From: a virus
DNA: 23,586 nt
Reading direction: 5' to 3' (one strand)
IMG/VR virus record: IMGVR_UViG_3300031787_000851
Location: 1 to 23,586 of that record
Shown: piece by piece, positions 27 to 13,912 of the stretch
Numbering within the stretch: position 1 is the first letter of the stretch
Layout of the letters: each line of letters begins with the position of its first letter
Notes under the pieces: generated by a model
Seen by the model: only the letters and a program-made list of their open reading frames with translations
Told to the model about the DNA's origin: nothing
Database searches by the model: none
Position numbers and translations under genes: made by a program

Positions 27-269
27 CTAGGCTTCCAGAGGGGCGGGTGACATCCCCACAGTTTCTGCCGGTTTAGGCGCTGGCAAGGCGCTTTGCGGGG
101 CTAGATTTTGCCGCGAATGTCGGCGCGCATCTGTCCACCAAGGCAGCTTTTTCGCTAGTCCCCGGCCAAAGCGCCAATTCGCGTAACCGTTCTTGAAATG
201 GACACGGATTCCGGGTATTGGAATCTCGGGAGCGTCGCTTGGGACTAGCAGGCGGCGTTCCCAACCCGT
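27..269 (-). pseudogene. Leftward 80-residue frame lacking a standard start; small gene remnant or frameshifted gene
   Basis: I do not recognise this protein. The frame is open for 80 residues and ends in TAG. It has a believable composition: a basic, Trp-containing middle (residues about 25-50, with NWRF near 31 and PWW near 43), then a Pro/Ala-rich tail ending SPAPLEA. A TAA lies directly upstream, and no ATG, GTG or TTG occurs near the front. An ATG at 274-276 sits one frame away, so a single-base shift between about 255 and 270 would give it a start. The competing 70-residue frame (285-73) is Arg/Ser/Pro-rich and looks like a shadow. Third-position GC is similar in both frames, so composition does not decide. 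Two LexA-type boxes lie directly upstream. It could be a decayed gene, a gene with an unusual start, or non-coding. Confidence 0.35.
154..249. repeat. Long inverted repeat enclosing a second stem
   Basis: The 9-bp arm GCTAGTCCC at 154-162 is perfectly complementary to GGGACTAGC at 241-249. Just inside, AAGCG (about 169-173) can pair with CGCTT (236-240). Within the loop, GATTCC (207-212) pairs with GGAATC (220-225) across seven bases. Together these could form a branched RNA of about 96 nt or a DNA cruciform. No U-tract follows on either strand, so it is not an intrinsic terminator. It lies inside the 27-269 frame, so the stems may be coincidental. Confidence 0.35.
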
Positions 270-278
270 TTAGCATAT

Positions 279-293
279 GTTCCACGTATGTTC
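279..293 (+). promoter_or_regulatory. LexA-type SOS box GTTC-N7-GTTC
   Basis: The sequence reads GTTC at 279-282, seven bases, then GTTC at 290-293. This direct repeat is the established LexA recognition pattern of Alphaproteobacteria. It lies just upstream of the leftward frame ending at 27. A second copy on the other strand lies 27 bp away at 321-335. LexA binding here is inferred. Confidence 0.6.
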
Positions 294-320
294 TACGCGG
301 TAATTCCGATTGAATTGGCG

Positions 321-335
321 GAACTAATCGTGAAC
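321..335 (-). promoter_or_regulatory. Second LexA-type SOS box, opposite strand
   Basis: The plus strand reads GAAC at 321-324, seven bases, then GAAC at 332-335, so the minus strand carries GTTC-N7-GTTC. It lies between the stop of the two-TM lysis gene (341) and the first box (279-293). Two exact matches within 57 bp of non-coding DNA are unlikely by chance. The pair may repress a promoter firing leftward out of the window. Confidence 0.6.
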
Positions 336-336
336 A

Positions 337-348
337 GCGATTAATCGC
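337..348. promoter_or_regulatory. Perfect 12-bp palindrome beside the SOS box
   Basis: GCGATTAATCGC is exactly self-complementary. It begins one base after the second LexA-type box and covers the stop codon of the two-TM lysis gene (TAA at 341-343). It could be a dimeric repressor operator or a short 3'-end hairpin. No U-tract follows in the leftward direction, so it is not a terminator. Its function is unknown. Confidence 0.4.
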
Positions 349-604
349 CCCGGTCGTCGATCTTCGCCCCGTCCTTGCTTACGTCGATCTGGAGCCTGCG
401 CCCCATTGCCCAGCCCATTGCGGTCATCCCGACAAGGATTTGAACGTGGGCGGCAATAGCCAGCCAGAACGACAGCTTGGTATCACCGCTAACGAGGTAA
501 ACCCCGGCGGCGGCAAACAGCGTCATGACAACGCAGCCGCCTAGGATGGCAAAGAACGCGAAGGCCCTGCGCCCGTCATGTGTATCAACAGGTGGGAGTT
601 TCAT
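341..604 (-). CDS. Small two-TM membrane protein, holin candidate
   Basis: This 87-residue protein has two clear hydrophobic segments, at about residues 13-38 and 44-67. A short polar turn (SGDTK) separates them, and a charged tail ends in DDRGD. That layout fits a class II-type holin, which would make membrane lesions and release the cytoplasmic lysozyme encoded two genes upstream. Its ATG overlaps the stop of the previous gene by 4 bases (ATGA), and GGAGG lies about 7 bases before the start. It is the last lysis-region gene before the SOS boxes. Family membership cannot be shown by eye; holins are too diverse. Alternatives are another small phage membrane protein or an antiholin. Confidence 0.7.
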   Translation of the reverse strand: MKLPPVDTHDGRRAFAFFAILGGCVVMTLFAAAGVYLVSGDTKLSFWLAIAAHVQILVGMTAMGWAMGRRLQIDVSKDGAKIDDRGD

Positions 605-844: not shown

Positions 845-1282
845 TCAGGGCTTCCGGTAAAGAGCGGCCTCGGCTTCACGGCGGCGGACTAGTCCCGGCA
901 GCACCTTGCCCCCGCCCTTGTTCCACCGGGCGAATTGACCGGCAGCGCCTTCGTAATTGCCTTCAAGGTGCATCCGGCGCAGCGTCGAGCCTTTCAGCGC
1001 CGTTTCGCCCACGTTGAAGCAGAACGACACTAGCGCGCTGTATTGGTTATCCGTGGCTGGGGCACATTCCTTGGCAACGTAATCCTCAAACCGGCGTAGA
1101 TCGGAACGCAGCAGTTCTTCGGCCTGGTCCTTCGTAATGGTCATGCCGGGCTTAACGTGCGGGCCGGTTGAACCGTAACCGATGGTCCAGACTTTTGCGG
1201 GGCAGAGGTATGAGGTCAGCTTGCAACCTTCGAATGCTTTGACCAGTTCTAGGCCGTCCTTATTGATTGCGCGGCGGGTCAT
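845..1282 (-). CDS. Endolysin, GH24 (T4-type) lysozyme
   Basis: This enzyme hydrolyses the beta-1,4 bond between MurNAc and GlcNAc in peptidoglycan at lysis. I chose the ATG at 1282 because GGAGG lies 7 bases upstream; the ATG at 1297 would place the Shine-Dalgarno inside the gene. The 145-residue product has the GH24 signature Glu-x8-(Asp/Cys)-x5-Thr: E18 in KAFEG, C27 and T33 in VWTIGYG. The Cys form of the second residue is known in phage members. The C-terminal lobe contains ALVSFCFNVG and the conserved LPGLVRRREAE. There is no signal peptide or signal-anchor, so release should depend on a holin. The length is typical for a single-domain phage lysozyme. Confidence 0.93.
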   Translation of the reverse strand: MTRRAINKDGLELVKAFEGCKLTSYLCPAKVWTIGYGSTGPHVKPGMTITKDQAEELLRSDLRRFEDYVAKECAPATDNQYSALVSFCFNVGETALKGSTLRRMHLEGNYEGAAGQFARWNKGGGKVLPGLVRRREAEAALYRKP

Positions 1283-1464
1283 AGGGCTTGCCTCCATGTT
1301 GTTGGGATGGTATGGAAATGCGACCGCCCTTCGAGGGCTTGGCCGAACAAGTTTGCACTGCGCAGACCGGTGACGCGGATGTGAAAGCCATCCGATTGCA
1401 GTGCAGAGCCGGTTGCAAACGGCGCTGGCGGTGGAAGCCCGCTAAACCCGACCGCTAAGGGCAA
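1279..1464 (-). CDS. Possible 61-residue coupled reading frame before the lysozyme
   Basis: This frame fills the space between the 63-residue gene ending at 1442 and the lysozyme. Its TGA overlaps the lysozyme ATG by 4 bases (ATGA), the coupling pattern used throughout this operon. The best start is a TTG at 1464, which lacks a convincing Shine-Dalgarno and lies 23 bases inside the preceding gene. The product is Pro/Gly-rich at the front, then SDGFHIRVTGLRSANLFG, and ends in a basic stretch. No domain is recognised. If it is not a gene, 1298-1441 is a short leader for the lysozyme. Confidence 0.35.
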   Translation of the reverse strand: MPLAVGFSGLPPPAPFATGSALQSDGFHIRVTGLRSANLFGQALEGRSHFHTIPTTWRQAL

Positions 1465-10259: not shown

Positions 10260-11608
10260 CAGATGCCCCCGAAGCCTTCGTTGACCACCACATCAGAAAC
10301 GCGGAAGTCCACCGGGGCGGTCACGCGAAATTCAAGCAGCACACCGGGCCGCGATGCCATCCCGCAAGCCAGCCATTGCACCCGCTTGCGGTATTCGCCC
10401 TGTTCGCCAAGGGTGGCCGTGCGCCAGTTGCTCCAGGTCTTGCCCGCATTGCGCGATGAACGCATTTCAATTGTCGGGTTGGCATAGGTGCCGGTCAGAT
10501 AGCCCGTGGTGCCGGGGTTGGTCCGCAGGCTCACACTTGAAAGGATCAATCCGCCCGCTTCAAACGGCGCACCGGCCCTAAATCGGCGCTCTAACGTGGT
10601 GCCAATGTCTTCCCATGCCGCGCCCCATTCCAGCGTCTTGCCGTCAATGGATGAACCGAACACACCGCCCGAAAAGCACTGCGGCACAAAGTTGTCGGCT
10701 TCGGCGCTTTCAAACTGCGACCACAGCCGCGAGCGGTAGCTATAAACCCACGTTTCGGCGTCCAGCGTCAGGGCCAGAAACTCGGTGCCTTCAAGCTGGA
10801 ACGTCCAGAGACGAACGCTTGCCGAGGCTTCAATCTTGGCTTCCAGACCCGGCCCCGAAACAACCTGATCGGGGCTTTCAAGGCATACCTGGTTGGTATC
10901 GGAAACCCATGCAAAGGACGGGCCAAACAGCGTTGCACAGCCGGTCCCGCGAATGCCCTTGCGGTAAGTCCGGCCCTCTAGCACCTGAAACGGCAGGTCC
11001 GGATCGGAGGTGTTGGGCCAAAACTCGACTGTTTCACTTCCGAACAGGATCAGCGAGTCCGACCAGAACAGAATATCCTTGAGCCGGTCGGGCTGCTGTT
11101 CCGCCGTGGCGAACGATAGCGCGTCAATCGTGGTGGACAGGACGTCCGACCAGTAGAATTTCTCGGTATCGGCGCGAATTGCAACCAGGCGCGAACCGCC
11201 CACCACAACCTTCAGCACGTTTGCACTATCGGGGAACGACAGGGCGCTAAGGGTTGCCCCGTCATAGCCAAAAATCGAGCCGCCGCCCGCTGCAAACAGG
11301 TAATCCTCAAAGCCCGCCATAAAGAACGGGCCAGGTCCATTAACAGGGCCTAGCGAGGTGCTGGCGTTGTAAAAGGCATTCCCCGAAATGCCGTATAGGG
11401 TGCTGTCCAGAACCCCGTCGGCCTTGAACAGTGCTTTAACCGGGCCTGCGCCCATATCCACTTCGCGGTCAGACAGGCCGGGGCGCGACTGCAACGCAAT
11501 GCCGGTGGCCTCCGTAGGGGCTTGCTCGGCGAACATATTGACAACCGGAAGCTCCGGAAGGTCGCCGCGCGTCCGTTCCGTTGCGTTGGTGCCGAATTGC
11601 AGGCGCAT
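10259..11608 (-). CDS. P22 gp10-like packaged-DNA stabilisation (tail hub) protein
   Basis: This 449-residue protein resembles the P22 gp10 family, which forms part of the tail machine below the portal and keeps packaged DNA in. Supporting stretches are LPVVNMFAEQAP-type N-terminal sequence (about 20-31), SRPGLSD (41-47), and the segment FYWSDVLSTTIDALSFATAE (151-170) followed by LILFGSETVEFWPNT (186-200). Repeated short beta strands fit the beta-propeller-like body. Length is close to P22 gp10. It sits directly after the gp4-like gene, as in P22, with a one-base TGATG overlap. The call is strong from motif and order. Confidence 0.88.
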   Translation of the reverse strand: MRLQFGTNATERTRGDLPELPVVNMFAEQAPTEATGIALQSRPGLSDREVDMGAGPVKALFKADGVLDSTLYGISGNAFYNASTSLGPVNGPGPFFMAGFEDYLFAAGGGSIFGYDGATLSALSFPDSANVLKVVVGGSRLVAIRADTEKFYWSDVLSTTIDALSFATAEQQPDRLKDILFWSDSLILFGSETVEFWPNTSDPDLPFQVLEGRTYRKGIRGTGCATLFGPSFAWVSDTNQVCLESPDQVVSGPGLEAKIEASASVRLWTFQLEGTEFLALTLDAETWVYSYRSRLWSQFESAEADNFVPQCFSGGVFGSSIDGKTLEWGAAWEDIGTTLERRFRAGAPFEAGGLILSSVSLRTNPGTTGYLTGTYANPTIEMRSSRNAGKTWSNWRTATLGEQGEYRKRVQWLACGMASRPGVLLEFRVTAPVDFRVSDVVVNEGFGGI

Positions 11609-12233: not shown

Positions 12234-13139
12234 CTATCTCCGAGAACTGGCCCCGCGCCCGCCGCGCGAACTGGCCGCGCTACGGTTGAACGCCGCCCCC
12301 GCCGCGATGCGGTTGCCTCTATCGTTAGCAACGCCGCGAACGGGCCTGATTTGCAGAAACCGCGCCACCATCGTTCCAGACGGGGCAAATGTGATTGTTA
12401 CCGTGCCGCTGATCGGCGTGAGCGGCGGGACCATTGACCCCGCAGTAATAAACGTTGCGCCGGTAGCGCCGGACAAGGCCCCATTGCCCGCCAGAACGCC
12501 GCTGGGCGCGAAAGTAGCGGTTAAGCTGCCTGTGAGCGCCCCGGTGCCTGTAAGCGCCCCTGCGGCGCTAAATGCCGCGCTAGAGCTACCGCTTGCAGGA
12601 ACGAAGCCCTGTAAAGTCCCCGCCGTAGTGAAAGCAGGTGAGGTAGATCCCGACAGCGCGCCCCGACCGGCCAGATTGCCCGCCGTGGTAAATGCCACCG
12701 AAACCGCGCCCGAAGCCTGCGCAAGCCCGAGGATGGTGCCCGCAGTCGTGAATGTCGGGGCGGTTGAGCCGGACAAGGCCCCTGTGCCGCGAAGTGTCCC
12801 CGCCGTGGTGAATGCTGGCGCGGTTGAGCCTGACAGCCTGCCCGCCCCGGTTATTGCCCCGGAGGTCGTGAATGCTATCGTGGAAGTACCCGAAGCCGCC
12901 GCCGTTGCCGTGCCGGTTGCCGAGGTGGTGAATGTTGCCGAGGTGGTGCCACTTAGAGCGCCCGTTCCCCGGAGAGTGCCTGAAGTCGTGAACGTCGGGG
13001 CGGTCGAGCCAGAAAGCGCGCCAGAACCCGTTAGATTGCCGCTAGTCGAAAATGCAACGGTTGAGGTGCCGGACATGGCACCCGAACCGCCCGCAAGTTG
13101 TGCTGCCGCAGCCTGTAGCGGCTGAAACAGCCAGCTCAT
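12234..13139 (-). CDS. Repeat protein with about twelve 20-residue Gly/Ser/Thr-rich units
   Basis: This 301-residue protein is almost all tandem repeats. After a short front (MSWLFQPLQAAAAQLAGG), units of 20 residues run from about 17 to 254. The consensus is roughly G-T-L-x-G-x-G-A-L-S-G-S-T-x-x-x-F-T-T-A; one later unit has 21. The conserved Leu, Gly and Phe positions suggest one short beta hairpin or solenoid coil per unit. The tail (about 262-301) is Arg/Ser/Gly-rich and basic. It begins right after the stop of the preceding gene, with AGGTGG 7 bases upstream. A fibrous or decoration role on the virion is inferred. The function is unknown. Confidence 0.8.
   Translation of the reverse strand: MSWLFQPLQAAAAQLAGGSGAMSGTSTVAFSTSGNLTGSGALSGSTAPTFTTSGTLRGTGALSGTTSATFTTSATGTATAAASGTSTIAFTTSGAITGAGRLSGSTAPAFTTAGTLRGTGALSGSTAPTFTTAGTILGLAQASGAVSVAFTTAGNLAGRGALSGSTSPAFTTAGTLQGFVPASGSSSAAFSAAGALTGTGALTGSLTATFAPSGVLAGNGALSGATGATFITAGSMVPPLTPISGTVTITFAPSGTMVARFLQIRPVRGVANDRGNRIAAGAAFNRSAASSRGGRGASSRR
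12378..13091 (-). repeat. Coding 60-bp tandem repeat array
   Basis: The DNA behind the 20-residue units repeats with a 60-bp period, about twelve copies. Copies differ mostly at variable codons, while the GALSGS and FTTAG parts stay similar in protein. Unit 12 has one extra codon. The array makes copy-number change by slippage or recombination possible. It also keeps a long antisense frame open on the plus strand. Confidence 0.85.
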
Positions 13140-13490
13140 TTACGCCACCTGCCGGATGGACCAAAGAACCGTAATCGTCCCAGCCAGGGCGTCGCAGGTA
13201 ACGTCCCAGCCGTTCATCAGAACAAGCGAGGGGCTAACCCAAATCGGGCTAGACTGCGCACCAGTCAGGATTGCCTCATAAGCAATCCGCTGGGTGTCCG
13301 CGCTGCGCACCTTTTCATAAATGCGGATTTGCAACTGGTCGCCGGCAACCATGTCGGACAGGTCAAGCCACACCTGAAAAACGCCGTCAGTCGTCTGCGC
13401 GTCGCCCGTGTCGTAGCTGGTATCGGTCGCAAGGCTCCATTCGGTCGTGCTGACCGCCTCGGTGCCGGTGATTAGTTCAACTATTGCCAT
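13140..13490 (-). CDS. 116-residue phage protein, probably a small virion component
   Basis: I do not recognise a named family. The protein opens MAIVELITGTEAVSTTEWSL, then alternates short beta-like stretches (VFQVWLDLSDMVAGDQLQIRIYEKV, split by polar turns). It ends in a strand with WDVTCDALAGTITVLWSIRQ. It has no signal peptide or membrane segment and looks like a small beta-sandwich. Its ATG overlaps the stop of the HNH endonuclease gene by one base (TAATG), and it is followed directly by the 20-residue-repeat gene. Its place among structural genes suggests a head- or tail-associated protein. Confidence 0.75.
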   Translation of the reverse strand: MAIVELITGTEAVSTTEWSLATDTSYDTGDAQTTDGVFQVWLDLSDMVAGDQLQIRIYEKVRSADTQRIAYEAILTGAQSSPIWVSPSLVLMNGWDVTCDALAGTITVLWSIRQVA

Positions 13491-13912
13491 TAGCGCGCCC
13501 TCGCCTCACGAGCGGCCAGTGCGCGCTTCGCCTTCACTTCAGGTATAGCCCTGTGTCGGTGGTGAGCATTTGCCTGGCACTGCTTGCAAATGCGCTTGCC
13601 TCGCCAAATCCGAGTATTCGGATGAGTGAACGCGTGACCATGGTTGCAGTGCGTCTTAACCTTGTTGACCGCCGTAATGCCTACACTGTTCTCAACCGAG
13701 TTTTGGCCCCGCGTCACAACCCGTAGATGGTCGACATTTACGCAGGCGCGATTGCGGCAGATGTGGTCAATACACATTCCTTCCGGGATTGGCCCATGCG
13801 CCCTCGTCCATGCCCAGCGGTGTGCAAGCCACGTTGCGCCATCGACTCTTTTCTGCGCATACCCGTCTTTATAGACTGGCCACGGCGAAGACTCGCAATC
13901 GGTTATCGCCAT
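13490..13912 (-). CDS. Free-standing HNH endonuclease with C-terminal zinc finger
   Basis: This 140-residue protein has an HNH_3-type nuclease core. HRWAWTRAHGPIPEG (about 31-45) leads into CIDHICRNRACVNVDHL, which supplies the D49-H50, N59 and H62 positions of the metal-binding fold. A small zinc-binding tail follows (C89, H93, C109, C112, with the RGKRICKQCQ stretch). Such proteins nick or cut DNA and are usually selfish homing endonucleases in phages. It has a good Shine-Dalgarno (GGAGG 5 bases before the ATG), starts 1 base after the previous gene, and ends in a TAATG overlap with the next. No intron or intein is visible nearby. Confidence 0.93.
   Translation of the reverse strand: MAITDCESSPWPVYKDGYAQKRVDGATWLAHRWAWTRAHGPIPEGMCIDHICRNRACVNVDHLRVVTRGQNSVENSVGITAVNKVKTHCNHGHAFTHPNTRIWRGKRICKQCQANAHHRHRAIPEVKAKRALAAREARAR

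Follow-up and report, generated by a model that had tools for sequence, protein, structure and literature searches.

OOP of bacteriophage lambda is a short RNA antisense to cII. The promoter of OOP contains a LexA-binding sequence (PMC5869508). Large phage RNAs have also been described: GOLLD is a large, ornate RNA of phages and prophages that has a conserved 3' and a variable 5' region and rises during lysis, and ROOL is a large, phage-borne RNA with pseudoknots (PMC12286853). The LexA sequence in the OOP promoter and the rise of GOLLD during lysis provide a precedent for each half of the mechanism that we propose here. At the locus under study, a LexA-repressed promoter probably drives a large non-coding phage RNA (we put the probability at about 0.7); its transcription, LexA binding, timing and function we infer from sequence.

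The window, by which we mean the whole stretch of DNA analysed, is a 23.6-kb virus record that carries the gene set of a P22-like podophage. Small and large terminase, portal, head-closure protein and endolysin were recognised among its proteins, and by portal comparison the Pseudanabaena phages Pan3 and Pam1 are among its closest annotated relatives. A search of the window for tRNAs found none. Because the main genes run along the minus strand, the endolysin and holin-like genes lie upstream of the reported site. The structural genes enclose an ORF that by inspection resembles an HNH homing endonuclease (13490-13912, minus strand) and an ORF of imperfect Ser/Thr/Gly-rich repeats of the GSGALSGSTAPTFTTSG type (12234-13139, minus strand). 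A sister-phage contig, IMGVR_UViG_3300032116_001645 (L085), reaches beyond the window edge. The features surrounding the site are:

845-1297, minus strand: endolysin (PHROG 7, E = 1e-61)
341-604, minus strand: holin-like ORF of 87 aa, upstream neighbour of the non-coding insert, with relatives in L085, L116 and Pam1
337-348, no strand: 12-bp palindrome spanning the stop codon at the end of the holin-like ORF, attributed to chance
321-335, minus strand: box B, an exact match to the pattern but unsupported as a LexA site
279-293, plus strand: box A, putative LexA-type operator (GAACATACGTGGAAC on the RNA strand), top matrix site, kept in L085
269-274, minus strand: GCTAAA, -10-like element 4 nt after box A, part of the putative RNA promoter (GAAC-N4-GCTA kept in L085 and L182)

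GCTAAA may be an alphaproteobacterial -10 element. In L085, 542 non-coding bp, which extend past the window edge, separate the holin-like ORF from a gene that looks like an i-spanin gene, with a membrane anchor and a coiled coil by inspection. The insert is absent from Pam1 and from locus L116, which has a 92% identical holin-like protein; in both, the holin-like gene directly adjoins the i-spanin-like one. A family search gave no match for the holin-like ORF, and its position and hydrophobic segments suggest that it encodes a holin. Between the window and L085 the non-coding sequence differs at 3 of 340 positions, compared with 16 of 90 fourfold-degenerate sites in the two adjacent ORFs (P = 2e-9, Fisher test); as divergence would also be low had the block been exchanged recently as a whole, conservation alone is no proof of function. 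The minus-strand ORF at 73-285 of the window was rejected as a gene because it ends after 39 codons in L085, and the insert has no conserved reading frame, as expected of a structured RNA. Further upstream (842-900), homology between the window and L085 ends sharply near position 842; this mosaic junction coincides with an ORF end.

An earlier note had described two exact GTTC-N7-GTTC elements in this non-coding DNA and a palindrome one base further, and read them as paired LexA-type boxes that place a leftward promoter, and a phage gene beside lysis, under host LexA control. Both elements are present, GTTCCACGTATGTTC at 279-293 (plus strand) and GTTCACGATTAGTTC at 321-335 (minus strand), as is the perfect palindrome GCGATTAATCGC, and both boxes lie inside the 542-bp insert. 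That so close a pair is unlikely to be pure chance is borne out by 300 first-order Markov shuffles, none of which produced a pair within 57 bp; the window as a whole has four exact boxes (at 279, 321, 3435 and 22847) against a shuffle mean of 0.78, with four or more in 0.7% of shuffles. The two boxes fare differently, however, when scored with a LexA matrix and compared with relatives: box A reaches 20.7 bits, ranks first in the window and is identical in L085, whereas box B reaches 3.0 bits, ranks 18th and is broken in L085, where GTTC is changed to GTCC. Box A also fits the local refinement of the operator in addition to its core, whereas box B has an exact core and a poor refinement. We rejected box B as part of an operator because of its weak score and lack of conservation, and the palindrome because such sequences occur at chance frequency (two perfect 12-bp palindromes in the window, against 5.8 expected). 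Of the proposed LexA control we therefore retain box A and give up the paired operator, the palindrome and the idea that the main target is a protein gene; box A is followed instead by a covarying structured RNA.

The matrix was built from nine sites of a related sphingomonad genome, the host of the window phage being known only indirectly, and it is partly circular because these sites were chosen by the core pattern; their leave-one-out scores range from 15.6 to 29.8. The next-best site in the window scores 12.3 bits, and the score of box A was reached by 2 of 400 shuffled windows. In genome G041, sites of the refined form GAACATWNNNNGAAC adjoin DNA polymerase IV-like, imuA, rmuC and radical-SAM genes, with the ImuA and RmuC matches falling below the curated cut-off and both representing partial or divergent proteins. 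The host genome has many exact copies of the pattern: G041 contains 104, against 72 for the reversed control, a mild excess, and in two other genomes the pattern is no commoner than the reversed control, so that overall there is no enrichment above control. Box A nevertheless looks like a real LexA-type site, to which LexA would bind. Elsewhere, Pam1 (L087) has a good alphaproteobacterial LexA-type site of 16.8 bits between two genes (18192, plus strand), an odd occurrence for a phage recorded from a cyanobacterium.

Comparative structure shows that the minus strand encodes a predicted large, structured RNA of about 450 nt, the parts of which within the window are (all on the minus strand):

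1-262: 5' part of the RNA, with its 5' end placed at about 260 and about 190 nt more past the window edge in L085 (conservation, covariation)
243-248: helix X, 5' strand CTAGTC, pseudoknot, pairs with 155-160
175-182: landmark GCGAATTG, GYGAATTR in all members (sequence conservation)
168-175: hairpin Z, 5' strand GGCGCTTT, base-paired in every phage row
155-160: helix X, 3' strand GACTAG, within the hairpin Z loop, pairs with 243-248
142-150: hairpin Z, 3' strand AAAGCTGCC, base-paired in every phage row
1-66: opening third of the 181-nt conserved 3' domain, truncated at the window edge (cmsearch 60.7 bits)

Compensatory changes in this RNA exceed chance. In the 181-nt 3' domain, 94% of cells are paired and 25 pairs have changed on both sides, compared with 12.0 +/- 2.1 in shuffles (0 of 500 reached the observed number) and with 2-7 when the pairing partners are slid. 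Alignments A5 and A6, having been fitted to the model, are biased in its favour; the same picture emerges from A3, in which four members are aligned by plain sequence (16 double-changed pairs against 7.1 +/- 1.8), for a structure predicted from those same four sequences. The closing 7-bp helix exists in at least four versions (AACTGTG/CACGGTT, TGGCATG/CATGCCA, CACTCCG/CGGAGTG and TATCGTG/CACGATA), each of them fully paired. Among the phage versions, hairpin Z and the helix X that crosses it, both in the 5' part, are paired in every row, helix X in three sequences. As G-U pairs outnumber C-A, the minus strand of the window is favoured as the RNA strand.

Over the whole insert, folding energy yields z-scores of -3.7 on one strand and -2.6 on the other, and that of the predicted transcript is no better than that of shuffles; because it fails to separate the transcript from shuffles, the case rests on covariation. 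A minimum-free-energy stem between the SOS region and the far 3' end was rejected, as it contradicts the covarying 3' domain. An alternative helix, 87-95/167-175, is mutually exclusive with hairpin Z; it is a perfect 9 bp in L085, is partly retained in L182 and is unclear in other members. Searches of five members (L085, L134, L154, L155 and L182) against Rfam at loose thresholds gave no match to GOLLD, ROOL or OLE. With no matching Rfam family, the RNA appears to represent a previously uncatalogued family.

A single exact 22-mer of the insert matched an Erythrobacter MAG (L130), and further homologues were found in genomes G129 and G528 of the same family or genus, in a prophage present twice in the isolate genome G041, IMG record 2840477696, the prophage sequence being nearly that of viral contig L182, and in viral contig L196. 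The RNA is found in six independent loci. It is rare, with confident matches in 3 of 398 family genomes and a fourth, G528, from the genus and order searches. No homologue was found in the plasmid and annotated-phage collections, and the RNA is absent from the examined stretches of Pan3, Pam1 and 31 other loci, most of them from phages whose relationship rests on the portal, the holin-like protein or the endolysin. Weak covariance matches of 20-24 bits (L162-L166 and L197) were set aside as chance; L162, L164, L166 and L197 are without the sequence landmarks.

The contexts of the RNA vary. In the podophages it lies between the holin-like and i-spanin-like genes, in L182 and the G041 prophage after endolysin, holin-like and spanin-like genes, and in L196 downstream of helicase, methyltransferase and other early genes. 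Among ten window proteins tested, only the large terminase (38%) is recognisably common to the window and about 58 kb of the G041 prophage region. Three sphingomonad islands carry the RNA after an AlpA-like gene, close to a tyrosine integrase and in the vicinity of restriction-modification or candidate defence genes. The P4-type integrase and AlpA-like regulator that characterise P4-like satellites or PICI were both found in the islands, which encode an integrase domain protein (L130), a tyrosine recombinase (L152) and an excisionase-family protein (L158); the AlpA-like ORFs in L130 and L134 were recognised by inspection. The cargo after the RNA in L158 (9946-13882) is a candidate defence system: of its two ORFs, located upstream of a type I methyltransferase, the one of 734 aa matches ZacB and the other, of 589 aa, gave no match. 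In G041, one copy of the prophage lysis region is on a short contig and a nearly identical one on the chromosome (L177 and L178), possibly from an excised or duplicated prophage.

A LexA-type box is found at a conserved position, that of the putative promoter, in the phage relatives. Its distance to the landmark is 111 nt in the window and L085, 117 nt in L182 and 116 nt, in the opposite orientation, in L196; it stands upstream of the RNA both where lysis genes precede the RNA (L182) and where early genes surround it (L196). In an alignment of the L085 RNA with that of L182, similarity starts at the box and GAAC-N4-GCTA is retained. In the islands no GTTC-N7-GTTC box occurs at matching spacing upstream of the landmark. 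A box in either orientation at one spacing in dissimilar phages is, in our view, the strongest evidence that it serves as an operator for the promoter of the RNA. The G041 prophage also has, downstream of the RNA, a second and stronger LexA-type site of 18.4 bits (L182:10788-10802, minus strand), and 12 bp past it begins a 78-aa ORF with cysteine pairs (10814-11050, plus strand).

We propose that the host LexA repressor would bind box A, which overlaps a leftward promoter, and that its removal upon DNA damage would allow the RNA to be made independently of the phage late promoter. The RNA would consist of a multi-branched, conserved 3' domain common to phages and integrative islands and, in the phage versions, of a 5' domain with a pseudoknot.

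Coincidental box matches, or boxes that are part of the RNA's own conserved sequence, seem quite unlikely to us. The pattern is frequent, with five exact boxes in 12.4 kb of L182, and the boxes of L182 and L196 agree with the refined consensus only in part, that of L182 being weak (11.4 bits); but box A tops the matrix sites of the window, and the equal spacing in three phage contexts, flipped in orientation in L196 and absent from the islands, speaks against coincidence. By our own estimate, for eight fixed bases, an exact box in either orientation would fall within about 15 positions by chance with a probability of about 5e-4 for each of the two further phages. Far less probable still is a DNA element or a self-splicing or transposing element (attachment site, origin, MITE or intron) in place of a functional RNA. 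Such an element would account for the clean way in which the sequence is inserted when compared with L116 and Pam1, and for its repeated occurrence near integrases in mobile elements, but covariation that includes G-U pairs indicates an RNA, Rfam models at loose thresholds gave no group I or group II intron or ribozyme match, and self-comparison revealed no outstanding terminal inverted repeats.

The RNA might also be mainly the long 5' leader of the i-spanin-like gene, the LexA box controlling this protein gene beside lysis. The gene begins about 15 nt past the conserved RNA on the same strand in L085, and read-through into it from the putative box A promoter may occur; the spanin genes of L182, however, are upstream of the RNA, and no lysis gene is near it in L196 or in the islands, which makes this account as improbable as coincidence of the boxes. 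Action in cis on whatever follows, such as attenuation or antitermination, is less improbable but still doubtful: same-strand genes follow the RNA in L085, L152 and L158, but the downstream genes have nothing in common, the size and conserved 3' domain exceed those of usual leaders, and the neighbour in L130 is convergent, which argues against a simple leader. Because neighbours differ in every context, the RNA most likely acts as a free-standing molecule.

The presence of the RNA on both the phage and the island side suggests a role in phage-island or phage-host conflict, in which, for example, one side would make the RNA and the other copy or counter it. That an RNA class common to dissimilar phages and restriction-modification islands, and induced by DNA damage in the phages, has such a role is a tentative idea that we hold to be less probable than its negation. 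As the RNA is common to phages and restriction-modification islands, a phage-island role is directly testable, and the apparent SOS wiring makes mitomycin C an immediate handle for expression and deletion studies. The locus would, if our reading is true, add a further class to the large phage RNAs beside GOLLD and ROOL, of moderate size and found in the prophage of an isolate.

Like GOLLD, the present RNA is a large phage RNA with a conserved 3' and a variable 5' region; it differs in length (about 450 nt, against more than 800 nt for GOLLD), in matching no Rfam family, in a window without tRNA and in the LexA-type box upstream of it in phages. With ROOL it shares a large size, carriage by phages and a pseudoknot, but there is no sequence or covariance match between the two, and hosts and contexts are other ones. 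The int-alpA RNA motif of Rfam is by name an RNA of integrase/alpA elements; no present member matches it, and the RNA described here follows alpA but is also found in phages without alpA. OOP is likewise a phage RNA with a LexA-type site at its promoter, whereas the present RNA is large, structured and antisense to no recognised gene. Box A itself resembles the alphaproteobacterial LexA operators at SOS genes in both the GTTC-N7-GTTC core and the refined form, and differs from them in lying in a phage and in having as its proposed target an RNA rather than a repair gene.
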